From IMG/VR virus record IMGVR_UViG_3300042868_002472, positions 1 to 57,556 of that record: a DNA stretch of 57,556 nt. One strand, given 5' to 3'. This document shows, piece by piece, positions 4,207 to 50,840 of this stretch; within the stretch, counting starts at the first letter, position 1, and each line of letters begins with the position of its first letter. The position numbers and the translations under genes were made by a program. The notes under the pieces are model-generated. The model searched no databases and had not been told where the DNA came from. It was given only the letters and a program-made list of their open reading frames with translations. The DNA is from a virus.

Positions 4207-4605
4207 CTATAAGAAAGCACGGATTTTTAATGGATCGACTGTTACTTTACCAATTAAGTCCGTATCTTTAAAAATTACAAACATTGCTGTGGTTTCTTTA
4301 TCGATGGGTACTTCCCAACGATCACCACCATACTTTGCTACTCTTACAAAGTCACCCTTTTCACACCAAGCGCCCTCTGGCCATGACTCCATCGTGTTGC
4401 GGTTCTTAAAGGCTAGTGGGCCAACTGTCACTACTCGACCAACCTGCGTGTTCCATTTCTCGGTCTCTGTAGTCTCAGCCTGTAAAATAATACCGCCAGC
4501 TGTTTTAAGTTTTGGTGCTCTAATTTGTACTAAAACATAACTACCAAATGGTGTTATGCCTGGGTCTGCGTTTGGGAACGCGTCATTCAGCGTTTGTTCA
4601 GACAT
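4207..4605 (-). CDS. GroES-like co-chaperonin (Cpn10 fold)
   Basis: This protein of about 132 residues has the Cpn10 pattern: PFGSYVLVQI (residues 19-28, equivalent to the opening strand of GroES), a GroEL-binding mobile-loop equivalent KTAGGIIL (34-41), VGRVVTVGP (55-63), and the roof/barrel segment GDFVRVAKYGGDRWEV (84-99). T4 gp31 and related phage proteins replace host GroES to let GroEL fold the larger phage capsid protein; the location in the capsid module supports that role here. Three ATGs are stacked (4611, 4608, 4605) after AGAGG; spacing favours 4605. It overlaps the end of the upstream small gene. Confidence 0.72.
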   Translation of the reverse strand: MSEQTLNDAFPNADPGITPFGSYVLVQIRAPKLKTAGGIILQAETTETEKWNTQVGRVVTVGPLAFKNRNTMESWPEGAWCEKGDFVRVAKYGGDRWEVPIDKETTAMFVIFKDTDLIGKVTVDPLKIRAFL

Positions 4606-4780
4606 CATCATCCTCTTTAATTGTTGATAAAATTATTTCTACAGCACGCTCTAATCCAGCGTACATCCCCACCATGCGTCCGTATTCAAACACATCATGT
4701 GAATTGGGTGTACGGATCGCAGTCGTTGCTACTTGTGACTGCGCTTCCGTTAATAAACTTATTACCTTGTCAATGTTCAT
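4598..4780 (-). CDS. Small conserved helical protein
   Basis: This 60-residue acidic protein is predicted to be largely helical (MNIDKVISLLTEAQSQVATT at the start, then MVGMYAGLERAVEIIL). It begins inside the stop codon of the 41-residue gene upstream (ATGA overlap) and ends inside the start of the co-chaperonin gene, so it belongs to a translationally coupled set between portal and scaffold. No family or catalytic residues are recognised. It may be a small virion or assembly factor; function unknown. Confidence 0.6.
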   Translation of the reverse strand: MNIDKVISLLTEAQSQVATTAIRTPNSHDVFEYGRMVGMYAGLERAVEIILSTIKEDDDV

Positions 4781-13175: not shown

Positions 13176-13205
13176 TTAAAAATAATTAAAAATAATTAAA
13201 AATAA
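13176..13205. repeat. Three perfect 10-bp tandem repeats, AT-rich
   Basis: TTAAAAATAA is repeated three times without a mismatch (13176-13185, 13186-13195, 13196-13205), ending 3 bases before a -35 box. A-tracts spaced at about one helical turn curve DNA, and such sequence often acts as an UP element. Confidence 0.85.
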
Positions 13206-13236
13206 GTGTTGCGTTTCTCTCAACACTCTGTATAAT
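13206..13236 (+). promoter_or_regulatory. Rightward promoter copy 1, with inverted repeat
   Basis: TTGCGT (13209-13214) and TATAAT (13231-13236) are separated by 16 bases. An inverted repeat AGTGTTG (13205-13211)/CAACACT (13221-13227) overlaps the -35 and spacer, a plausible operator. The whole region from here to the start codon is repeated nearly identically at 22134-22217. Confidence 0.75.
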
Positions 13237-13283
13237 GACTTCTGTGGTAGGACAACACAATAAAACTAAAAGGACTAAATAAA

Positions 13284-20814: not shown

Positions 20815-22138
20815 TTTACACCAGTATCAGCTGCACGCGATTGAGTTTATCAAGAAGCAGAAGCGCTGCCTGCTAGCTATCTCGATGGGCCTAGGCAAGA
20901 CCATCTCAACACTGACGGCCATCAACGACTTGATAGACTCGTTCACCATACGCAAGACTCTGATTGTTGCGCCCTTAAGGGTTGCTAACAGTGTCTGGGC
21001 ACAAGAGGCCGAGCTGTGGGACCACACTAAGCATTTAAAGGTTAGTGTCTGCACGGGCAGCGAGAGGCAACGCCTGACGGCGCTTATGCAAGACGCAGAC
21101 ATCTTTGTCATTAACCGTGAGAACATCCATTGGCTAGTGAAGGTACAAAAAAAATGGCGCTTTGATTGTGTCGTGATTGATGAGTCTGACTCGTTCAAGA
21201 ATGCAAGCTCTAAGCGTTTTCGTGCCTTGCGTAAAATACTACCGGAGACCACGCACATGATCCTGCTATCAGGTACGCCTTCGCCAAATGGGCTACTAGA
21301 CATCTGGGCACAGATGTACCTGATTGACTTCGGTGAGCGCTTAGGTAGGACGATGACTTCGTACAAGGATCGCTTCTTCGAGCAGGATTACATGGGCTAC
21401 AACTACACGCCAAGAGAAGGCAGCGCCGATAAGATTCATAATTTACTCAGAGACAAGGTGCTTAGCATGAGCAGCGAGGACTACCTTGAGCTGCCGGATC
21501 GGATCGATTTAACAATGTCGGTGGAGTTGCCATCAAAAACGTTGCTTGATTATAAAGAGTTTGAGACCACACTGCTGGCGACACTGCCAGACGGCGAGGA
21601 GATCGAGGCCATGAACGCGGCGGTGTTGGCCGGTAAGCTGTTGCAGTACGCCAACGGCGCGATGTACACGGACGAGCTGCACAACTGGACACACATCCAT
21701 GAGGTTAAGCTGGACGCGTTGGCCGAGGTTATTGAGAACAACGAGGGTGAGAACATCCTGGTGGCGTACAACTTTAAGCACGACCTGATGAGATTGCAGC
21801 AGCGCTTCCCTGGCGGCGTTGTGTTAGACAAGGACCCAGACACAATCACAAGGTGGCAGCAGGGTAAGATCAAGCTATTGTTTGCCCATCCGCAGAGCGC
21901 TGGCCACGGTATCAATCTACAGGCTGGTGGGTGTGTGGCCGTTTGGTTTGGCCTGACGTGGTCATTAGGCCACTATCAACAGTTTAACGCGAGGCTGCAC
22001 AGGCAAGGACAAGGTCGCCCGGTGCGTATTATTCACATCATTGCTGCCGACACAATCGATGAGCGAGTGGTGTCAGTACTGAGTTTGAAGGGTGCCGTGC
22101 AAAATAATTTACTGAATGCGTTAAAAAGACCAAAATAA
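20798..22138 (+). CDS. SNF2-type superfamily 2 DNA helicase
   Basis: This 446-residue protein has motif I SMGLGKTIST (29-38), motif II VVIDESD (126-131, DESD for DEAH), motif III LLSGTPSPNG (156-165), and motif VI FNARLHRQGQ near residue 400. It matches compact phage SNF2/DEAD-like helicases that translocate on DNA and assist replication or recombination. The start is fixed by an excellent ribosome site, GGAGGAAGCAA before ATG. It is the last gene of the polymerase-nuclease-helicase block; a duplicated promoter follows its stop. Confidence 0.88.
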   Translation: MRFLIDLHQYQLHAIEFIKKQKRCLLAISMGLGKTISTLTAINDLIDSFTIRKTLIVAPLRVANSVWAQEAELWDHTKHLKVSVCTGSERQRLTALMQDADIFVINRENIHWLVKVQKKWRFDCVVIDESDSFKNASSKRFRALRKILPETTHMILLSGTPSPNGLLDIWAQMYLIDFGERLGRTMTSYKDRFFEQDYMGYNYTPREGSADKIHNLLRDKVLSMSSEDYLELPDRIDLTMSVELPSKTLLDYKEFETTLLATLPDGEEIEAMNAAVLAGKLLQYANGAMYTDELHNWTHIHEVKLDALAEVIENNEGENILVAYNFKHDLMRLQQRFPGGVVLDKDPDTITRWQQGKIKLLFAHPQSAGHGINLQAGGCVAVWFGLTWSLGHYQQFNARLHRQGQGRPVRIIHIIAADTIDERVVSVLSLKGAVQNNLLNALKRPK

Positions 22139-22169
22139 GTGTTGCGTTTATCTCAACAGTCTGTATAAT
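22134..22169 (+). promoter_or_regulatory. Rightward promoter copy 2
   Basis: TTGCGT (22142-22147), 16-base spacer, TATAAT (22164-22169), with the inverted arms TGTTG/CAACA around the spacer. It is nearly identical to 13201-13236, and its leader to 13237-13283 (GGACAACACAATAAAA in both). Confidence 0.78.
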
Positions 22170-22217
22170 CGTTTTTGTGGTTGGACAACACAATAAAAGG
22201 TTAAAAGGAGAAATAAA

Positions 22218-39725: not shown

Positions 39726-39958
39726 GTTGGCCTACGTTTTTCTAGTATGTCAAAGACGCGCTCGATGGCATTCTTTAAATCTTTCACATCCTGGCGGTAA
39801 TCGTCTTTAGAGACGTAATCCTTGGGTAACTCTTCGCGTAGCTTTGCTAGATCGGCTTTTAATTCTTGCGACGCTGTCCATAGCATCCGCAGCACCCATC
39901 CAAAGACTGAGCCAGTCCCCATGATGACGATATTTACTAGTCCTTGTTCCATGTTCAA
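39722..39958 (-). CDS. Second lysis-cassette membrane protein
   Basis: This 78-residue protein has a membrane segment near residues 6-27 (LVNIVIMGTGSVFGWVLRML) and a charged coiled-coil tail (YRQDVKDLKNAIERVFDILE). It overlaps both the HldD-like gene upstream and the next lysis gene. It resembles small phage holin or antiholin-like proteins with a cytoplasmic or periplasmic coiled coil. Exact role unknown. Confidence 0.6.
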   Translation of the reverse strand: MNMEQGLVNIVIMGTGSVFGWVLRMLWTASQELKADLAKLREELPKDYVSKDDYRQDVKDLKNAIERVFDILEKRRPT

Positions 39959-40722
39959 CCCTTCAGCGTCTTATTTAATTTTGTCAAGTCTGCTTTTGTA
40001 TAAGCTTGATAACCGCCGCGTAAATTTGCTGGCATTGGTATCTCTACTATTTCAGCCCCTGATTCAGACGCTATCTGTTTTGCAACATCTTCAAATGACG
40101 TTGCCTCGCCAGTGCCAACATTCCATACACCTGACTCAGCAATATCAAAAAACTTCTTATGCACATCTATAACAGTCTCGACCGGCACAAAGTCACGCTT
40201 AAAGTTAGCGCTACCTTCAAACAACCGGATCTCACCCTGCTCAGCCTGCTTTCTAAATTTGCTATACGGTGAAGCTTGATCGCCCTTATGGTCCTCGTGC
40301 TTACCGTACACATTAAAATACCTAAAAAATTGTACCGTACTGGGCAGCTGTTGTAAATTATACTTTGTTTCTACCAGCAACTTGCTGTAAGCATACAGAG
40401 TATTGGGCACTGCTAAGTCTGTCTCTTTAAAGGTTGTGTTGTCTTTACCGTATACGCTAGCGCTAGAGGCCATCTGTATTGGTATGCGACGCTCTATGCA
40501 CTGATCAATTAAGTCATAGCTAAACATTATGTTCTGCGCCCTAAGCGCCTCTATGTCAGTGCACGATGTGCTGCTAATAGCGCCAAGGTGAATCACACGA
40601 TCTATGTTATCTAAACTGTATGGCTTATCGCCCCACTCGTACCCGGTCAAATCATGATCGGCCAATGCCTCCATCATGTTCTGCCCTATAAAGCCTTTAT
40701 GTCCCGTGACTAGGATACGCAT
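39955..40722 (-). CDS. hldD: ADP-L-glycero-D-manno-heptose 6-epimerase (HldD-like)
   Basis: This 255-residue SDR epimerase would convert ADP-D-glycero- to ADP-L-glycero-D-manno-heptose, the donor for LPS core. It has the NADP site GHKGFIG (7-13), HLGAISSTS (45-53), SSASVYG (86-92) and the YxxxK pair Tyr110/Lys114. FRYFNVYG, HKGDQAS and LFEGSANFKRDFV align closely with E. coli HldD; Tyr110 and Lys146 correspond to its two catalytic bases, Tyr140 and Lys178. It is about 55 residues shorter than the bacterial enzyme, lacking part of the N-terminal domain and the C-terminal tail. It overlaps the kinase gene. Confidence 0.87.
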   Translation of the reverse strand: MRILVTGHKGFIGQNMMEALADHDLTGYEWGDKPYSLDNIDRVIHLGAISSTSCTDIEALRAQNIMFSYDLIDQCIERRIPIQMASSASVYGKDNTTFKETDLAVPNTLYAYSKLLVETKYNLQQLPSTVQFFRYFNVYGKHEDHKGDQASPYSKFRKQAEQGEIRLFEGSANFKRDFVPVETVIDVHKKFFDIAESGVWNVGTGEATSFEDVAKQIASESGAEIVEIPMPANLRGGYQAYTKADLTKLNKTLKG

Positions 40723-41414
40723 ACGGCGCCTAGCTTAGTGCAAGACTCTGCTGCCTTCTTATTAGCGTAAGTCAAAGCTTTTCCCATAGTGTCGGTTCTT
40801 AAGTGCTCTGCTACCATCGCGGCTAGGAATACATCCCCAGCACCACACACGTCCACTACATCAATCTGCTCTACTGGGTACTCTATGCCTGTATAGATGC
40901 ATCCCCTAGCCCCTCTAGTCACCACGTAGTTGTCGTTGAGTGACTGTGCATTGTGGTACTCTATTTCATTAATTTTAAGCATGATCCCGTTAAACTTCGC
41001 TAAGTCTGTCTTTTTGGTGTCCATGTACATTGAACCGCCGAAGGTATTGCGTATTGCCCTCACCGCTTCCGTTGTAATGAACCCCTTGTTATAATCTGAT
41101 ATTACTATCGCATCGTAATCGTATTTCTCTTGTGGCACATAAGGCGCACAGATTACGTCTTCATCTACTCTAAGTAAGTGGTCGCCTGTTCGCATGTCTA
41201 TAAATCTAACCTTGCGCGAAATCTTATCTGGTACCACTAAATCCACTTCTATGCCAAATGAACGTAGGTTGTCAGCCACATTATAGGCCATCCCTAGGCG
41301 TTCGTCTTTCTTCACAAAACTCAGTAGCTGGGCAGTAGACTCAGGATTAATCCTGTTTATCACGCCATAACGGTACTCGTCTATACACGCATCACCAATT
41401 ACCAAGACTCGCAT
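40710..41414 (-). CDS. Heptose-7-phosphate kinase (HldE kinase-domain/HldA-like)
   Basis: This 234-residue ribokinase-fold (PfkB) protein opens with [20 protein letters not shown] (residues 3-22), as the HldE kinase domain does. The catalytic loop VCGAGD (189-194, Asp194) and the ending KKAAESCTKLGAVCVS correspond to the HldE kinase end. It would phosphorylate D-glycero-D-manno-heptose-7-phosphate at C1. It is shorter than the E. coli domain (about 318 residues), so it is compact. GGAG precedes ATG 41414, within the cupin gene. Kinase and adenylyltransferase, fused in E. coli HldE, are separate here. Confidence 0.84.
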   Translation of the reverse strand: MRVLVIGDACIDEYRYGVINRINPESTAQLLSFVKKDERLGMAYNVADNLRSFGIEVDLVVPDKISRKVRFIDMRTGDHLLRVDEDVICAPYVPQEKYDYDAIVISDYNKGFITTEAVRAIRNTFGGSMYMDTKKTDLAKFNGIMLKINEIEYHNAQSLNDNYVVTRGARGCIYTGIEYPVEQIDVVDVCGAGDVFLAAMVAEHLRTDTMGKALTYANKKAAESCTKLGAVCVS

Positions 41415-41764
41415 TGACTGTCTCCAGGCTCTACTCTGTAGTTGTCTTCTACGCTATCAGGGGTTGAGACCTCTATAATTGTCCCAGCTTCTAAACAAAT
41501 CAGTTGGTGTGGCACTAACGGTGGGTTATGCCAAGTGTCACTTGGATTAAGCGTAAACTCACTCCGACTTGCATCCCTAGTGTTAATTATCACTACCTTA
41601 AACTTGCCAGACTGGACATACCATGTCTCGTCCTTGGCTGAATGAAAGTGCATCGAGAACTTAGCGCCAGCATTAAAGTGCATCAGCTTGCCACAATACT
41701 TGTCATTCGTAGCCCAGATTAGCTCTGAACCCCAGCCCTTCTTTACAATTCCATCAAGTCGCAT
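41399..41764 (-). CDS. Cupin-domain protein of the heptose cassette
   Basis: This 121-residue single-domain cupin has metal-ligand candidates His39, His41 and Glu46 in the first motif ([17 protein letters not shown]) and His86 in the second (VPHQL). Small cupins of this form include sugar isomerases and epimerases and often sit beside heptose genes. It lies between, and overlaps, the kinase and adenylyltransferase genes by 16 and 22 bases, so a step on a phosphorylated or nucleotide heptose is likely. It is not one of the five standard pathway enzymes; the activity is open. Confidence 0.75.
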
Positions 41765-42126
41765 ATCATCTTCGTCGTTGAGTAACCCTTTAACATAGGC
41801 ATAATAATGACAGGCTTGCCACCACTCACCACCTGGTCCGGCTTATAATCGCCGCCCTTAACTACTACGTCTGGATCAATCCGCTTAATCAACTCTAGCG
41901 GTGTATCTTCATCAAAGATAATTACTTCATCTACATAGCGCAACGCTAGCAGCATTGCCTTCCTGTCTTCCTGATTGTTAATAGGCCTTGTTTCGCCTTT
42001 TAAACGCTTGACCGATGCGTCAGAATTCAACCCTACCACTAGACTGCCAATCTTGGCGGCTTCTTTTAAGTACTCTATGTGGCCTCTATGCAGGATGTCA
42101 AAGCACCCGTTAGTAAATACTATCAT
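41743..42126 (-). CDS. hldC: Heptose-1-phosphate adenylyltransferase (HldE C-domain/HldC-like)
   Basis: This 127-residue nucleotidyltransferase has [20 protein letters not shown] (residues 4-23, HxGH site as HRGH), [31 protein letters not shown] and the final GYSTTKMI loop. This is nearly the whole signature of the RfaE/HldE cytidylyltransferase-like domain. It would join ATP and heptose-1-phosphate into ADP-heptose. It is stand-alone, as in bacteria with split HldA/HldC. It overlaps the cupin downstream and the P-loop gene upstream. Confidence 0.9.
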
Positions 42127-42530
42127 CTTTTGTTGATCTCGTGCATAATCAATGAGACCTCTTCGTCCACTAACATGCCCTCTGGCACAACCACATCAAC
42201 AATCGTTGGCGGCTCAAATAACTTGTTCGTATCAGCAAAGCGACCTTCGTCTATGCGGTCAACCCATATAATAAAGGCTTCCCCAAAGGCTCTGCGTGTC
42301 TCGCTAGTAGGGCAAACAAAGTCTGCAATCACATGCTCTGTCTCAGCTGCATCACATAACTCACCTAGTCTCGTTGCTTGACGTATCCTGCCCTCTACCG
42401 AGAAGTCCCAGTCATCGTGCAGCCGTCTTGCGTCATCGGCATTGTAGTGCGTAGCCTTTAACCGCTTCGCTAATGCTTTAGCTAGCGTTGTTTTACCAGC
42501 GCCAGGTAGTCCCATAATCAGTATTTTCAT
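42123..42530 (-). CDS. Adenylylsulfate-kinase-like P-loop protein
   Basis: This 135-residue P-loop kinase has Walker [10 protein letters not shown] (7-15). The following [29 protein letters not shown] and [13 protein letters not shown] resemble APS kinase (CysC), where GDN-R, DLGFS and FISP motifs hold APS. APS kinase makes PAPS, the sulfate donor, and a sulfotransferase is encoded 4 kb upstream in the same operon. The motifs are divergent and the protein is shorter than CysC (about 200 residues), so another small-molecule kinase is possible. Confidence 0.68.
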
Positions 42531-43105: not shown

Positions 43106-43798
43106 TTATTTCTCCAAGTTGTCGTTACGTTCCGTTGTGCGTCCAGCTTTCGGACGGTTTAATATTGTTGTCTCTGCACCCTTTTCATCGTAAGCATAGA
43201 TGCCCATTTGATGGATAGGAAAAATGTCAGCCCTCAATAATATATCAAGTGGAGCGCAGATACCATACTTTAAGACATGCGCTAACATGTTCTTGGCTAC
43301 CGCAGGGTCGATTGCATAAGCGTGTGCGCGACAGATAAAGTGGTAGTTAGGACCTTCTGATGCGTGTGGTGGCGTAGGAAAGACTCCCCAGCCTTGTTTT
43401 ACTTGTTCGTGTGAGCCTAGGAAGCAGATGGAGTTATAAACGCCATGTTGGGTAAAGGCTTGGGTCATTACGGAGTCATGCTCTAGAACGATAAGAGGCT
43501 TGTCTTGTTCTACGCACTTAGCCCATAGACTGATATGTGAAAGAGCGCAGGCAACCTCTCCACGGGTTAGGTAGTGGTCTGTCACCTTAATCATCTTCAT
43601 CACGCTATTGTGATGGGCTGGTGGCTGTATTTCACCAGAGAGACCGTTGTAGGCTTCCCAGTATTCCCAAGGCTGACCCACGGTATCGCATGAGTCTGAA
43701 CATCTTTTTGCTTGTGTCTCAGAGTTTTGATTGCCAGCGACTCTGATGATGTACGCCTTGTCTACGACAGTGTCGTAGCTAAAAAATAGGGATTTCAC
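43106..43798 (-). CDS. Glycosyltransferase family 25-like protein
   Basis: This 230-residue protein shows the GT25 (LPS/LOS glycosyltransferase) pattern: KAYIIRVAGNQNSETQAKRC (14-33), PWEYWEAYNGL (43-53), GEVACALSHISLW (80-92) and an acidic metal motif LEHD (105-108) in place of EDD. Such enzymes add galactose or glucose to LPS core or proteins. It starts with GTG 43798 behind a strong AAGGAG site. It directly follows the 14-blade propeller gene, which makes fibre or LPS glycosylation equally likely. Confidence 0.76.
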   Translation of the reverse strand: MKSLFFSYDTVVDKAYIIRVAGNQNSETQAKRCSDSCDTVGQPWEYWEAYNGLSGEIQPPAHHNSVMKMIKVTDHYLTRGEVACALSHISLWAKCVEQDKPLIVLEHDSVMTQAFTQHGVYNSICFLGSHEQVKQGWGVFPTPPHASEGPNYHFICRAHAYAIDPAVAKNMLAHVLKYGICAPLDILLRADIFPIHQMGIYAYDEKGAETTILNRPKAGRTTERNDNLEK

Positions 43799-43808
43799 CC
43801 TTTTCTCC

Positions 43809-46085
43809 TTAAGTTGTTAGTGCCCCACATTGATAATAGCTAGATCCTTGAGTAACGGCTGACCAGTTAGTATTGCTTCCTAATTGTACAGGTGATGAGC
43901 GTTTTACTAAGTCATCAAATCCGCTGGTTCCACTTATTCCACCGCCCCATGACCATAATGTACCGTCAGTTTTTATGGCTATTGACTGTGATAAATTCCC
44001 AGAAACCTTAGACCATGTAGTTAAAGCCCCCACCTGCACAGGAGATGAACGAGCAATAGTATCATTTTGCCCTAACTGCCCATAGTTGTTTCTACCCCAT
44101 GACCATAACGTACCATCTGTTTTAATTGCAAGAACCCCAGCATACGCCGCTTCTACAGTTAACCATGTGGTTAATGCGCCAACTTGTACGGGTGATGAGC
44201 GATTTACTGTATCATTTTTGCCTAACTGACCATTTCCATTAATTCCCCATGTCCAAAGTGTTCCATCGGTTTTTGTAGCGATGGTAAAATAATCGCCAGC
44301 GCTAACTGACAACCAAGTAGTTCCAGCACCAATCTGCGTTGGAGATGAACGATTAACTACATCATTTTGACCTGTTTGACCGTTATTTGCAGATCCCCAA
44401 GACCAAAGCGTACCATCAGTTTTAATCGCAGCGCCATGAAGATAACCATTAGATATTTTTAACCATGTAGTTAAAGCGCCAATTTGAACTGGAGACGACC
44501 TATTAATTACAGTGCCATCACCTACTTGACCAGAAATATTGTGTCCCCACGCCCAAAGTGTGCCATTTGTTTTTACAGCTGTTACGAATGCATATCCAGA
44601 ATATACGTTTGACCAATTAGTATCTGTACCAACTTGAGCTATTGCAGACCTATATACAATATTATTTTGAGCTAGTTGGCCTGTACCATTTCGACCAGCA
44701 GTCCATAAAGTTCCATTAGATTTAATTCCCGCCATGAAATTTGTACCGTAAGAAACAATACTCCATGAAGTTTGACTACTAACTTGTACTGGTGAGGAGC
44801 GATTGATAAGATCACCTTGAGCTAATTGTCCATTTTCATTAGATCCCCAAGCAAACAAGTTAGACGCTTCTAGGGATGGGACGTTGAAAGCGCCCAAATT
44901 ATCACCGCCGCCATAAGGTGTTGTCCATGTAGCAAGCGGTCCTACTTGAACTGGGGACGATACATTTACAGCAACAGCTATATTTTGAGCTAATTGTCCC
45001 CAATCATTCCTGCCCCATGACCACAAAGCGCCACTCGAATTAACCGCAAATAAAGAATAGTCAGAGGCGCCCATCTGCGACCATGTATTTAATGTTCCTA
45101 TTTGAATAGGAGAAGAGCGATTAACTATATCATTTTGACCTAATTGACCATACGCATTACTTCCCCACGCCCATATAGTTCCATTTGTTTGTATAGCCGC
45201 AGCGAAAGCCCCTCCGTTATAAACTTTAGACCACGTAGTTAATGCACCTACTTGAACAGGTGATGAACGATTAACTCTATCGTTTTGACCTAACTCACCA
45301 CTAGCATTACTTCCCCAAGACCAAAGAGTACCATTTGTTTTAACAGCAAATGAACTATTGCTAGCGGCTAAACTAGCCCAGTTTGTATCAGATCCTACTT
45401 GTACTGGAGAGGAGCGATGAACCGTGCTGGCTATATTTTGGCCTAACTGCCCGTTATTATTTCTACCCCAAGACCACAATGTCCCATCTGTTTTTATGGC
45501 TAGCGCGTGATTTGATCCTACAGCAGGGATTGACCAATTAGTTAGGGCGCCAATTTGTACGGGTGATGAACGATTAACTCTATCGTTTTGACCTAACTCA
45601 CCGCTATTGTTATAACCCCATGACCATATTGTTCCATCTGTTTTAGTTGATATAGATGCAAGTGATGCTGAGATATTAGCCCAATTAGTCAATGCTCCAA
45701 CTTGTACTGGTGATGAACGATTAATTGTCGTGTTGTCACCTAGTTGGCCATAAGCATTATATCCCCATGCCCATAGTGCCCCACTAGAATTTATGGCAAA
45801 CGTTGTATAGTATACCGACAGTTTTTTCCAATTTGTTGACGATCCTACTTGAACAGGTGACGAGCGGCTTACTAAGTCATTTTGAGCCAAGGAACCAAAT
45901 TGATTTCCACCAGCAACATATATTGCTCTAGGGATAATAGGCTTAGGCCACGTACCCTGCTTGACGTATCCGCTAGCTTGTTCTAATGTCCAAACGCCAG
46001 GCGCACTACCACCTTCCCCATCCGTTGGGCCAACCACTACAGGTGCTGAACGGTTTATTAGACCGCCTGGATAACGTTGTGACAT
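43809..46085 (-). CDS. RCC1-repeat protein, 14 blades (double beta-propeller)
   Basis: This 758-residue protein consists almost entirely of RCC1-type repeats of about 49 residues with the core LWSWGxNxxGQLGQND, xRSSPVQVGALTNW. Fourteen repeat junctions are present after a short N-terminal lead. A linker (FNVPSLEASNLFAWGSNENG) falls after the seventh, so it probably folds as two seven-bladed propellers. It has no signal peptide. It sits in the late tail operon, so it is probably a fibre or receptor-binding protein. Lead segment YPGGLINRSAPVVVGPT resembles the start of the third RCC1 protein. Ribosome site GGGAGTTCTT. Confidence 0.85.
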   Translation of the reverse strand: MSQRYPGGLINRSAPVVVGPTDGEGGSAPGVWTLEQASGYVKQGTWPKPIIPRAIYVAGGNQFGSLAQNDLVSRSSPVQVGSSTNWKKLSVYYTTFAINSSGALWAWGYNAYGQLGDNTTINRSSPVQVGALTNWANISASLASISTKTDGTIWSWGYNNSGELGQNDRVNRSSPVQIGALTNWSIPAVGSNHALAIKTDGTLWSWGRNNNGQLGQNIASTVHRSSPVQVGSDTNWASLAASNSSFAVKTNGTLWSWGSNASGELGQNDRVNRSSPVQVGALTTWSKVYNGGAFAAAIQTNGTIWAWGSNAYGQLGQNDIVNRSSPIQIGTLNTWSQMGASDYSLFAVNSSGALWSWGRNDWGQLAQNIAVAVNVSSPVQVGPLATWTTPYGGGDNLGAFNVPSLEASNLFAWGSNENGQLAQGDLINRSSPVQVSSQTSWSIVSYGTNFMAGIKSNGTLWTAGRNGTGQLAQNNIVYRSAIAQVGTDTNWSNVYSGYAFVTAVKTNGTLWAWGHNISGQVGDGTVINRSSPVQIGALTTWLKISNGYLHGAAIKTDGTLWSWGSANNGQTGQNDVVNRSSPTQIGAGTTWLSVSAGDYFTIATKTDGTLWTWGINGNGQLGKNDTVNRSSPVQVGALTTWLTVEAAYAGVLAIKTDGTLWSWGRNNYGQLGQNDTIARSSPVQVGALTTWSKVSGNLSQSIAIKTDGTLWSWGGGISGTSGFDDLVKRSSPVQLGSNTNWSAVTQGSSYYQCGALTT

Positions 46086-46528: not shown

Positions 46529-48298
46529 CTATGCGGTTAATTTCTTAAGTTCTCGAAGTTGTGCACCGATTTTCTTGAAGGGATCGGTCCAGTCCCCAAA
46601 ACTCGTCTGTCTAAACAATGTTACGCTATTATACCAAACTGAGGTATTCGTTGGAGGTGCCCATAAATAATAAGGTAACACCGGCACCACAATCCATGTC
46701 TCTACACCCATCGCCGCAGCCAAGTGCGCTACAGACGTACAAGAGGTAATCACTAGGTCACACGATGCAATCGCTTCAGCAGTCTGCTCCCAATGGTCTA
46801 GCGATACTTGTCCAACCCAGTTTGGGCGATACTGTGAACCTTCATCGCGCTGTAGGCTGATAACTTCAGCGTCAACACCCTTTACAGCGTCAAACAATAG
46901 TTGACTTGGGAATACGCGGTGCTGTTCATGCTCAAACTGTGGATTACCTTGCCAGCGTAACCCAATACGGTATTTAGACGATTTCGGTACATTCGGACGC
47001 GGAATGTATGCCTCTCCGCTAACATCCTTGTATTCTAACTCTAAAACCATAGCCGCTGACATAGATGGTAGCCAGAAGTCGTGTACAACGCCGAATAAGG
47101 CTTCATGTTGGATTACTGCGGTGATACCATCAACGTGACGTAGAAGTCCAGCTAGAGGGCCACTACACGCGACGATTACCTTGCATCCACGCTCTAAAAT
47201 GTATTTGACGTACCTTACCCCGTGAATTTGATCTCCAAGACCGCCTTCGAGGTTTAACATGACTACGCCTTGAGATTTTCCATCCCATATAGGCATCGGT
47301 GAGCTAGGAACTGGGTTACCAAATACGCCTTCAATACGACCACGATAAAGTAGTTTTTCGCCATCTAATAAGTTGCCTTTCCACATTTGGTACCAGCCAC
47401 GATTAAACGCAGCCCTGTGGTTCCAAGGCTCGTCCTTCTCAATCTTCTGCGCTAGTCGCCAGCCTTCGTTAAAGTTTCCCATCAAGCCTGCAGACAGTTG
47501 TAAGTCTAGGTCATGGATAGGGCGGTGGCCTGGGCCTTCGTTTAACCAGAAGCGTGGTTGTTGGTAGTCGCGATAGAACACACCAAGCACGTCTTCCGCT
47601 GTGGTTGAGTGTTGGCGTTTAAGCTCTGGCTTAACATCGTGAAGACCTTTAACCTGCCATACCTCTTCGTCGTTCTCTTTTAGGTGATCCGCGTTAATCA
47701 TCGCCAAGTTATAGTCAAACGCTGGGATGTCTAAGAAGGCATGAATGCGGTCTAGCTCTTTCTGTGGGTTATTAAGTAGGTCGTCGTAGTCCACGAATAG
47801 AATGCACTCAGGAGCGAAGCGGTAGCCTGACTCTAGTGTTTGGTATGACTCTTTAACGTGTGAGACTAGCTCACTTGTCCTTAAGAACTCTTCTAGGTTG
47901 TCAGGCTTGGCTACACGCACCATAGACGCTACGCAGTCAGGGATGTTACGAACCGTCGCTATAATCTTAGGCTTGTGACCTAAAACCTTTGCCATCGTTG
48001 GGATGTTGACGTCAGATGCCCAGCCACGCGCTTTGTCTAGGATGATAGACTTGCCTACGTCCTCGTACTTAGATTCGCAGATGTTTCGTAAGATACGCTG
48101 TATCTCAGCTTCCGACTTAGCCTTGTCTGGCGTAGCTTGAACTGACATTGAGTCCGCCCAAGCTCGTAAGGTACCCACTAACATATCTAATAGTCCAGAT
48201 GTCGCAGTCGTGTGAACCTCTGGGTTTTGACTCAAGATTGCAGCTAAGACGGTTGAGCCAGAGCGTGGAAGTCCTGATAAAAAGTATATGTTTTTCAT
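46529..48298 (-). CDS. Sulfotransferase fused to GT9 heptosyltransferase-like domain
   Basis: Protein of about 589 residues. Residues 1-255 form a PAPS-dependent sulfotransferase: 5'-phosphosulfate loop LSGLPRSGSTVLA (7-19), 3'-phosphate motif VRNIPDCVASM (116-126) and CILFVDYDDLL. Residues about 264-325 look like TPR helices. Residues about 345-589 resemble GT9: GGLGDQIHGVRYV (352-364), GLRWQGNPQFEHEQH (446-460), and CDLVITSCTSVAHLAAAMGV (513-532). It could both transfer heptose and sulfate a glycan. An upstream TTG (48319) is in frame, but ATG 48298 follows GAGAGAGAA. It lies between two RCC1 genes. Confidence 0.84.
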   Translation of the reverse strand: MKNIYFLSGLPRSGSTVLAAILSQNPEVHTTATSGLLDMLVGTLRAWADSMSVQATPDKAKSEAEIQRILRNICESKYEDVGKSIILDKARGWASDVNIPTMAKVLGHKPKIIATVRNIPDCVASMVRVAKPDNLEEFLRTSELVSHVKESYQTLESGYRFAPECILFVDYDDLLNNPQKELDRIHAFLDIPAFDYNLAMINADHLKENDEEVWQVKGLHDVKPELKRQHSTTAEDVLGVFYRDYQQPRFWLNEGPGHRPIHDLDLQLSAGLMGNFNEGWRLAQKIEKDEPWNHRAAFNRGWYQMWKGNLLDGEKLLYRGRIEGVFGNPVPSSPMPIWDGKSQGVVMLNLEGGLGDQIHGVRYVKYILERGCKVIVACSGPLAGLLRHVDGITAVIQHEALFGVVHDFWLPSMSAAMVLELEYKDVSGEAYIPRPNVPKSSKYRIGLRWQGNPQFEHEQHRVFPSQLLFDAVKGVDAEVISLQRDEGSQYRPNWVGQVSLDHWEQTAEAIASCDLVITSCTSVAHLAAAMGVETWIVVPVLPYYLWAPPTNTSVWYNSVTLFRQTSFGDWTDPFKKIGAQLRELKKLTA

Positions 48299-48308
48299 TT
48301 CTCTCTCG

Positions 48309-49445
48309 TTATGATGCAATGCCTATTGTTGCGTAAAAATTATTGTATACTTTACTCCAATTTAAACTACTGCCTATTTGCACGGGAGATGAACGATAAA
48401 CTAAGTCATTCTGACCTAATTGGCCACCGACGCTGTAACCCCAACTCCATAATGAACCATCTGATTTAATAGCATATGAAGCGTTATACCCAGCATTAAT
48501 GGTAGCCCAATTAACTAAAGTTCCTACTTGTACTGGTGAAGAACGATTAACTCTATCATTCAGGCCTAATTGGCCCCCAAGATTTTGCCCCCAAGTCCAT
48601 AATGAACCATCTGTTTTAGTAGCTAATGTAAAATAACCGCCACAAGAAACTTTAGCCCAATTTGTTAACGCACCAACTTGAGTAGGTGAAGAACGATACG
48701 CTATATCGTTTAGGCCTAATTGGCCGCTATCATTCAGACCCCAGCTCCATAGGGTACCATCAGTTTTAATGGCAAATAAATAATAACCACCAAATGATAT
48801 TGAGCTCCAATTAGTTAACGCCCCTACTTGAACAGGAGATGAACGTCTGATTGTATTGCTTTGTCCTAATTGGCCATACGTGTTTTGCCCCCATGCCCAT
48901 AAGGTTCCGTCTGTTTTAATGGCTGCTGATGAATATGCGCCGCATGCCACATTTAACCATGTAGATAATGAACCTATTTGAACAGGCGATGAACGATATC
49001 CCCCTGATACATTCAGACCTAATTGACCCTGATTATTTTTACCCCATGACCATAATGTGCCATCTGTTTTAACGGATAATGCATGATAGTCTCCTAAAGA
49101 AACTAAGCTCCAATTGGTCAATGCACCCACTTGTACTGGAGACGAGCGACTAACTTCATCGTTTTGACCTAATTGGCCATTGCTATTATTACCCCATGAC
49201 CAAATTGTATTATTTTGTTTTGTAGCTATTTCATATGAATTACCAATAGCAGCATTTCGCCATGTTGTATCGGTGCCTACTTGTACTGGTGAAGAACGAT
49301 TAACTCTATCATTCAGGCCTAATTGGCCTAAATTATTTGCACCCCAAGACCATAATCCTACTGGCATTGGTGGGTATGACCATAATCCCTGACCAGCCGC
49401 CTGCATCTGCGCTTGTAGTGTCCACATTCCGCTGTAGTTTGGCAT
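48309..49445 (-). CDS. RCC1-repeat protein, 7 blades
   Basis: This 378-residue protein has a short N-terminal region (MPNYSGMWTLQAQMQAAGQG), then exactly seven RCC1-type repeats; each ends in RSSPVQV-like and TNW-like elements. One closed seven-bladed propeller is expected. The last repeat ends with YNNFYATIGIAS, the strand that would close the ring. It has no signal peptide or membrane segment. It is probably a virion fibre or adhesin. Ribosome site AAGGAAACAAAAGA. Confidence 0.83.
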   Translation of the reverse strand: MPNYSGMWTLQAQMQAAGQGLWSYPPMPVGLWSWGANNLGQLGLNDRVNRSSPVQVGTDTTWRNAAIGNSYEIATKQNNTIWSWGNNSNGQLGQNDEVSRSSPVQVGALTNWSLVSLGDYHALSVKTDGTLWSWGKNNQGQLGLNVSGGYRSSPVQIGSLSTWLNVACGAYSSAAIKTDGTLWAWGQNTYGQLGQSNTIRRSSPVQVGALTNWSSISFGGYYLFAIKTDGTLWSWGLNDSGQLGLNDIAYRSSPTQVGALTNWAKVSCGGYFTLATKTDGSLWTWGQNLGGQLGLNDRVNRSSPVQVGTLVNWATINAGYNASYAIKSDGSLWSWGYSVGGQLGQNDLVYRSSPVQIGSSLNWSKVYNNFYATIGIAS

Positions 49446-49457
49446 TCTTTTGTTTCC

Positions 49458-50840
49458 TTAAGACGAGATGGCTATGGAAAAAATATTATTAGTATCAACA
49501 AGAATCCAAGTAGTAGCGCTCCCAACTTGTACTGGTGATGAACGACTTACTTTATCGTTTTGACCTGTTTGACCATAAATATTATACCCCCAAGACCATA
49601 GCGTTCCATCTGTTTTTATGGCAAGCATTGGGCCTGAAGCTGCTGACTTTGCCCAATTAGTTAAAGCCCCTACTTGTACTGGAGAAGAGCGGTCTACCCT
49701 ATCATTTTGACCTAAAGTACCGTAACTATTTTCTCCCCACGTCCATAATGTTCCGTCTGTTTTAATGGCGGCAATAGAATTACTGCCAGAAACATTTGAC
49801 CAATTAGTTAAAGCTCCAATCTGCACTGGAGAAGAACGATACACCCTATCATTTTGACCTAATTGGCCATTTTGATTTTGGCTCCAACTCCATATAGTTC
49901 CGTCTGTTTTAATAGCAATATTCATTTTTGGAGATATCTTAGACCAATTAGTTAAAGCCCCAACTTGGACTGGAGAGGAGCGATTAACTCTATCATTTTG
50001 CCCTAATTGACCATCATTATTGCTACCCCAAGACCAAAGAGTTCCGTCTGTTTTAGTAGCTACTGTATGATTATAACTAACTGATATATTAGAAGTCCAG
50101 TTTGTTAAGCCACCAACTTGTACTGGGGATGAGCGATTAGCATATGAACCTGCTTGATTTAATCCCAGTTGACCATAACTTCCATTCCCCCATGCCCATA
50201 ATGTACCGTTGGTTTTTACGGCAAGCATAAATTCACCTGAACATATAACGCTAGACCAATTAGTTAATGCTCCTATTTGTACAGGAGATGAACGATTAAC
50301 TAAATCATTTTGACCTAACTGTCCAAAATTATTTCTACCCCAAGCCCAAAGTTTTCCATCTGTTCCCGTAGCAGCTGATTGTTGTGTTCCAGATGATATA
50401 CTTGACCATGTAGTGTCCGCACCAACTTGAGTTGGAGAAGAGCGGTCTACCCTATCATTTTGTCCTAATTGACCATAAGAGTTTTGTCCCCATGTATACA
50501 GCAGTCTAGGCTGAACGGGTGTTCCTGAAGTACCTGTGCTGTAAGGGCCTGGACCGTACGCATTTACCGCACATACTTGAACTGTATATGCCGTTCCATT
50601 AGTCAATCCTGTAATCGTGATTGGAGAAGCAGAGTCTGTTGCTGAAAACAAAACACCAGCGGCTGACTGAGCAATTGCTATATAAGAGGTAATAACTCCA
50701 CCCCCCACATTAGATGGGGCAGTAAAGGCAACAGATACTTGTGCGTTGCCTGCAGTTACAGTTCCTATTGTTGGCGCATTAGGCACCTTCAAAGGGTTAT
50801 ACGAGGCTGTGATGAACCCACCTAAATAGCGCATTGACAT
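49458..50840 (-). CDS. Fibronectin III plus 7-blade RCC1-repeat protein
   Basis: This 460-residue protein has residues about 18-110 forming a fibronectin type III-like domain (VPNAPTIGTVTAGNAQVSVA, ITGLTNGTAYTVQVCAVNAY), a common fold on phage virions that aids surface attachment. Residues about 112-460 are exactly seven RCC1-type repeats, one propeller, closing with NNIFSIAISS. The start MSMRYLGGFI resembles the 14-blade protein's start, suggesting a shared attachment peptide. It is the first of the three RCC1 genes in transcription order. Confidence 0.85.
   Translation of the reverse strand: MSMRYLGGFITASYNPLKVPNAPTIGTVTAGNAQVSVAFTAPSNVGGGVITSYIAIAQSAAGVLFSATDSASPITITGLTNGTAYTVQVCAVNAYGPGPYSTGTSGTPVQPRLLYTWGQNSYGQLGQNDRVDRSSPTQVGADTTWSSISSGTQQSAATGTDGKLWAWGRNNFGQLGQNDLVNRSSPVQIGALTNWSSVICSGEFMLAVKTNGTLWAWGNGSYGQLGLNQAGSYANRSSPVQVGGLTNWTSNISVSYNHTVATKTDGTLWSWGSNNDGQLGQNDRVNRSSPVQVGALTNWSKISPKMNIAIKTDGTIWSWSQNQNGQLGQNDRVYRSSPVQIGALTNWSNVSGSNSIAAIKTDGTLWTWGENSYGTLGQNDRVDRSSPVQVGALTNWAKSAASGPMLAIKTDGTLWSWGYNIYGQTGQNDKVSRSSPVQVGSATTWILVDTNNIFSIAISS

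Follow-up and report, generated by a model that had tools for sequence, protein, structure and literature searches.

The window analyzed here is the whole of IMG/VR record IMGVR_UViG_3300042868_002472 (57,556 bases; the record may be incomplete), and it carries portal, terminase, primase, DNA polymerase, and helicase genes. Its TerL matches that of Roseobacter phages CRP-901/902 at 49%, while the DNA polymerase points instead to Pseudoalteromonas phages, and a megablast search of the 20 kb around the locus described below against phages gave no match. At positions 39955 to 42126, four overlapping minus-strand ORFs form a cassette, with the transcription order HldC-like adenylyltransferase, cupin, HldA-like kinase, and HldD-like epimerase, and with successive overlaps of 22, 16, and 13 nt (Table 1). 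These are the four genes listed in the original prediction, which had been made from the sequence of the window. Six-frame searches of the window gave no match to GmhA (SIS) and none to GmhB or any other HAD homologue, in agreement with the same prediction; should the record be incomplete, a phosphatase gene could lie outside it.

Table 1. Genes of the cassette and of its surroundings in the window
Feature	Position	Strand	Size and supporting features
HldC-like D-glycero-D-manno-heptose 1-phosphate adenylyltransferase	41743..42126	-	127 aa; TIGR02199 E=1.5e-48; YSTTK motif
Metal cupin, proposed sedoheptulose-7-phosphate isomerase	41399..41764	-	121 aa; Cupin_2 E=6e-8; PF01050 E=1.5e-4
Compact HldA-like heptose-7-phosphate kinase	40710..41414	-	234 aa; TIGR02198 E=5e-28; GAGD motif; D194
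HldD-like ADP-heptose 6-epimerase	39955..40722	-	255 aa; TIGR02197 E=4e-60; Y110, K114, K146
APS-kinase-like P-loop kinase	42123..42530	-	PF01583 29.7 bits vs cut-off 21.1; overlaps start of HldC-like gene
GT25-family glycosyltransferase	43106..43798	-	PF01755 54.8 bits
Three RCC1-repeat proteins	43809-46085, 48309-49445, 49458-50840	-	~50-aa repeats
Sulfotransferase	46529-48319	-	PF13469 66 bits

For each of the three Hld proteins, the best NCBIfam model is the expected one, with bit scores that lie below the curated cut-off in all three. The adenylyltransferase scores 164 bits with TIGR02199, the best of all NCBIfam models and just under the cut-off of 181.5; 14 of its residues are invariant across 40 viral relatives, and its HxGH motif (H13-x-G15-H16) is invariant. 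The kinase scores 98 bits with TIGR02198 (curated cut-off, 345 bits) and lacks ~80 residues of HldA, with a portion of the profile beyond about position 67 absent. A profile of 57 viral kinases has HldA 4e84 as its best PDB match (E=1e-31), followed by the ribokinase family (1e-12). In the same way, the AlphaFold model of the kinase (pLDDT 94.9) has only HldA structures at Foldseek ranks 1 to 7 (1e-17 to 1e-19), and the first non-HldA match is a sulfofructose kinase (1e-13). Both profile and fold thus put the kinase, which retains the GAGD motif, nearer to HldA than to general ribokinases, although in so compact an enzyme the specificity may have been altered or lost. The epimerase scores 203 bits with TIGR02197 (cut-off, 274.6), with galE far lower at 54 bits. 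Its best PDB matches are the HldD structures 1eq2 and 2x6t (E=2e-46 and 8e-46), while other sugar epimerases match at 3e-14 or weaker. The result that would have spoken against the original prediction, a kinase among general ribokinases and an epimerase among UDP-sugar epimerases, was thus not obtained. The two catalytic bases expected from the original prediction are found at their positions, Tyr110 within YAYSK and Lys146 within HKG; Tyr110 is invariant and Lys146 nearly invariant among 36 sequences, and both align with 1eq2 at the HldD positions.

Based on these best family models and solved structures, the gene set is, by homology, an ADP-heptose pathway, as had been proposed. A different nucleotide sugar as the product, with the three Hld-like enzymes having shifted to some other heptose or hexose and the cupin isomerizing that substrate, is quite improbable. 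The scores of all three Hld proteins under the NCBIfam cut-offs, the truncated kinase, and the lack of an encoded GmhB are compatible with such a shift, but the nearest families and solved structures are those of HldA and HldD, not of neighboring families, the HldD residues Y110 and K146 are kept, and archaeal homologues of full length score above the cut-offs for HldA and HldC. Compared with the known ADP-heptose pathway, the window has the same kinase, adenylyltransferase, and epimerase families; it differs in lacking GmhA and GmhB, in the shortened kinase, and in the cupin, which we propose for the GmhA step.

The cupin falls just under the cut-off of PF01050 and contains the metal motif G(X)5HXH(X)4E(X)6G in full. 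All 154 viral and cellular relatives have H39, H41, K44, and E46, and every relative that covers the respective column also has H86, E98, D107, and the N-terminal W11-G12-x-E14. The metal site of D-lyxose isomerase type, composed of three histidines and one glutamate (H39, H41, E46, and H86), is therefore complete. A profile of 49 viral cupins matches the D-lyxose isomerases 2y0o, 7nzo, and 3kmh, and its alignment with 2y0o runs through a 'TDRYC.K' segment, the HxH, the K, the E, the H, and the distal E. The counterparts in the Thermofilum D-lyxose isomerase (TsLI) are H75, H77, K86, E88, H143, and E156, and loss of the equivalents of K86, E156, or D163 abolishes lyxose isomerase activity (PMC8378251); this residue mapping is our own, made from the alignment printed in that paper and the 6-residue offset between the two enzymes. 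K44 and E98, which correspond to the essential K86 and E156, are conserved throughout the cupin relatives. The column of D163 holds D in most cellular and cyanophage-type cupins and V105 in the clade of the window, where the invariant D107 lies nearby.

The D-lyxose and phosphomannose isomerases (2y0o, 7nzo-q, 3kmh, and 7zvy) have in common with the window cupin the fold, the HxH..KxE..H ligands, the catalytic lysine, and the distal glutamate. In contrast, identity is about 15 to 19%, and the window cupin has no loop between HxH and KxE and has an N-terminal KGWGxE of its own. An archaeal operon cupin has a single NCBIfam match, to TIGR01479, in the isomerase part of GMP_PMI (mannose-6-phosphate isomerase). 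Both the D-lyxose isomerases and the phosphomannose isomerase found through PF01050 and TIGR01479 are aldose-ketose isomerases. Interconversion of fructose 6-phosphate and mannose 6-phosphate is the same C1-C2 reaction on a substrate one carbon shorter. The fold of the cupin model (pLDDT 91.8) agrees with an isomerase, but the Foldseek result is unspecific, with quercetinases and oxalate decarboxylases scoring alike; we rejected assignment of function from the fold search alone because too many cupin families score alike.

The cassette also occurs in other phages, including cyanophages whose genomes have long been known, P-SSM2 among them. Relatives of the four proteins occur in 31 to 121 phage records; tblastn matches to the kinase come from 31 records and matches to the cupin from 35, every one a cyanophage or a marine single-cell virus, and P-SSM2, S-CAM3, P-TIM68, Sf-FS3, and Sf-CH8 have all or most of the gene set. 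The heptose cluster of cyanomyoviruses (P-SSM2 PSSM2_309-313, S-CAM1/3, S-SSM7, and P-TIM68) includes homologues of all four proteins, the cupin among them, at about 36 to 48% identity, and it too often lies beside fibre or neck genes. Unlike the window, this cluster adds a small HAD gene and has other gene orders, and the 57.6-kb phage of the window is unrelated to these viruses. Two scans of IMG/VR yielded at least 97 loci. Linkage was counted in the 51 loci, the window included, in which 4 kb or more flank the kinase on both sides. Within 4.5 kb of the kinase, an adenylyltransferase is present in 48 of the 51, a cupin likewise in 48, and an epimerase in 42. The order adenylyltransferase-cupin-kinase-epimerase is that of the window's clade, while epimerase-adenylyltransferase-kinase-cupin, adenylyltransferase-kinase-HAD-cupin, and others are found elsewhere. 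Since gene order varies among viruses, selection maintains the linkage, and not descent alone. A contig binned as Bifidobacterium breve (L119) and possibly mis-binned also carries a phage-like adenylyltransferase, cupin, kinase, epimerase-like gene, and HAD.

These observations bear on whether the genes are relics or passengers with no pathway function in the phage, which we consider extremely improbable. The lack of an encoded GmhB in the window would fit a decayed pathway, but the ORFs are intact and overlapping, and the same genes have been assembled repeatedly in different orders. In addition, dN/dS against the nearest relative (L011) is 0.04 to 0.11 in all four genes, with synonymous sites near saturation for three, and all four are under purifying selection.

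None of the 97 viral loci encodes a GmhA, and neither these loci nor the window gave a match to the SIS fold or to TIGR00441 (GmhA, GNGGS motif); the cupin may work like GmhA but does not belong to its family. A small HAD is present in 20 viral loci and a GmhB-like HAD in 6. The cyanophage protein PSSM2_311 and its relatives, which are labelled "phosphoheptose isomerase," were considered as GmhA and rejected: they are HAD-type proteins of ~110 aa with a DIDGT motif (L001:7719-8063; homologues in L002-L007), match the capsule phosphatase model TIGR01689 weakly (35 bits), and gave no SIS domain match. Judged by sequence, they are candidate phosphatases and not GmhA, and the label is an error. 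Because this supposed isomerase is a HAD protein, the viral loci examined have no recognizable first-step enzyme. A "phosphoheptose isomerase" gene is also listed for SynMITS9220M01 (PMC7378029), by name only.

A scan of genome contigs with the cupin gave 77 loci. In DPANN archaea and one Patescibacterium, the cupin lies in an operon of the order cupin, epimerase, kinase, GmhB, and adenylyltransferase, that is, one gene per pathway step, with the cupin at the place expected for GmhA. In one such operon (L174), the kinase and adenylyltransferase score above their curated cut-offs, and the epimerase and phosphatase come close. The operon cupins of DPANN archaea and Patescibacteria have the same partner genes and 20 invariant residues in common with the phage cupins, while the operons differ from the phage cassette in having a full-length HldA, a GmhB, and several domain fusions.

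The distribution of the cupin and GmhA was surveyed in 194 genomes of the DPANN phylum to which G007 belongs, with thresholds of at least 280 bits for HldA and at least 140 bits for GmhA. Among the 33 genomes with HldA, 10 have the cupin only, 20 have GmhA only, none has both, and 3 have neither (Fisher p=3e-6); when the GmhA threshold is relaxed, both occur together in one genome (p=5e-5). Of the 287 genomes surveyed in the Patescibacteria phylum of G001, 13 are HldA positive at E<=1e-80, and these comprise 5 with the cupin only, 7 with GmhA only, 1 with both, and 0 with neither. In the genome with both, GmhA adjoins the kinase, and the cupin, a weak match, is on a different contig. Pooling the 46 strong-HldA genomes gives 15 with the cupin only, 27 with GmhA only, 1 with both, and 3 with neither; the pooled Fisher p=2.3e-8 is a guide only, since it ignores kinship, comes from incomplete MAGs, and depends on thresholds chosen after inspection of the score lists.

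Fusions follow the same pattern for both proteins. A kinase followed by a cupin within one ORF is seen in L247, L248, and L249 (439 to 443 aa), in L250, where the ORF is cut by the contig end, and in L270 (Patescibacteria), and cupin-kinase fusions in L268 and L269. Correspondingly, kinase-GmhA fusions occur in L253 and L254 and a GmhA-kinase fusion in L271. One archaeal ORF of 475 aa is a GmhB-cupin-HldC triple fusion (L251:3105-4532). Operons that begin with gmhA (L260 and L261) otherwise match operons that begin with the cupin gene (L255 and L262). Since both are fused to the kinase and exchanged in otherwise matching operons, the cupin and GmhA behave as interchangeable parts.

The exclusion between GmhA and the cupin, the fusions, the place in the operon, the viral linkage, and the conserved active site all point to the cupin as an isomerase, and we consider it likely that it is a non-orthologous sedoheptulose-7-phosphate isomerase, so that the phage would encode four of the five steps and borrow only the GmhB phosphatase. 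Extension to the phage protein rests on its membership in the family (viral and archaeal cupins are only about 31 to 44% identical but have 20 invariant columns in common) and on its having the same partner genes as the cellular cupins. Against the isomerase stand the single genome with both genes, the three with neither, V105 in the D163 column, and the shortened kinase. The original prediction had the host supplying GmhA, which is not supported, since relatives of the cupin replace GmhA in cellular operons and exclude it by genome. Homology supports its three steps of kinase, nucleotidyl transfer, and epimerization, but the cassette more likely accounts for four, with only the bisphosphate phosphatase missing.

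The same prediction saw in the cupin the source of a modified heptose, and relatives that fuse to the kinase as GmhA does give this no support. More generally, a tailoring enzyme (epimerase, 3,4-ketoisomerase, or dioxygenase) could convert ADP-heptose or a heptose phosphate to a sugar absent from the host, with both GmhA and GmhB supplied by the host. Cupins carry out reactions of these types in other sugar pathways. PHROG 7851 carries the label cysteine dioxygenase, quercetinases are among the high Foldseek ranks, and many loci also contain 2OG oxygenases, carbamoyltransferases, and methyltransferases. We nonetheless consider a tailoring role unlikely, because it leaves unexplained both the exclusion between cupin and GmhA in HldA-positive genomes and the fusion of each to the kinase, and because the closest functional matches that keep the catalytic residues are aldose-ketose isomerases.

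As a sedoheptulose-7-phosphate isomerase, the cupin would convert sedoheptulose 7-phosphate from the host pentose-phosphate pathway to D-glycero-D-manno-heptose 7-phosphate in an aldose-ketose reaction, with a divalent metal held by H39, H41, E46, and H86 and with K44 and E98 at the substrate. The compact HldA would then add the C1 phosphate, host GmhB would remove the 7-phosphate (in other phages, a GmhB-like or small HAD phosphatase could do so), HldC would add AMP, and HldD would invert C6. Neighboring transferases would pass the heptose to a phage fibre or to the host surface. We infer both the reaction of the cupin in the phage and this destination of the sugar, and the phage may, as originally suggested, control its own donor supply.

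It also seems probable that in many phages, DPANN archaea, and Patescibacteria this cupin family, unrelated to GmhA, carries out the step that commits the substrate to ADP-heptose, that these phages accordingly have a pathway without GmhA, and that the cyanophage HAD proteins are mislabelled. In a tree of 66 cupins, which has few columns and leaves many forks unresolved, the window's clade is one separate branch of a mixed viral and cellular family. Some relatives lie outside heptose operons (G102, G107, G183, and Binataceae-type contigs), and the wider family may include isomerases for other sugars. By eye, L122, L149, and similar Myxococcota/Binataceae-type contigs have a distant cupin branch before a GDP-mannose 4,6-dehydratase-like gene.

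Until now, the heptose genes of phages have been catalogued as LPS genes resembling those of the host, accompanied by an unexplained cupin and lacking a genuine GmhA. A literature search that covered few subscription papers returned no paper linking a cupin with GmhA or with the sedoheptulose-7-phosphate isomerase step. With the cassette itself already present in cyanophages, what our comparisons newly suggest is a previously unrecognized substitute for GmhA. Should the cupin prove to be the isomerase, many viral cassettes would gain the first step that they lack, and a textbook reaction would have a second solution, unrelated to the first; ADP-heptose synthesis would then be likely in many DPANN archaea and Patescibacteria, and the conserved residues would provide a sequence signature for finding cupins that replace GmhA.

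The cassette lies among RCC1-repeat genes, which probably encode virion fibre or appendage proteins, together with genes for the GT25 transferase, a methyltransferase, the APS-kinase-like protein, and the sulfotransferase. Given these neighbors, a decorated and perhaps sulfated fibre or surface glycan is a plausible end product, and the GT25-family glycosyltransferase is a candidate user of the heptose donor. The C-terminal half of the sulfotransferase ORF resembles GT9 heptosyltransferases below the cut-off (PF01075 E=0.01), and a check of this half for a heptosyltransferase gave no PDB profile match. The APS-kinase-like gene adjoins the cassette in 21 loci, counting the window. Both it and the sulfotransferase gene recur beside the cassette in the window's clade, a hint of a sulfated glycan. 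Elsewhere in the window, a GroES-like co-chaperonin (Cpn10, 36 bits) is encoded at 4207-4611 (-), and a 67-bp repeat with TATAAT boxes, 90% identical between its copies at 13199-13265 and 22132-22198, probably represents twin promoters.
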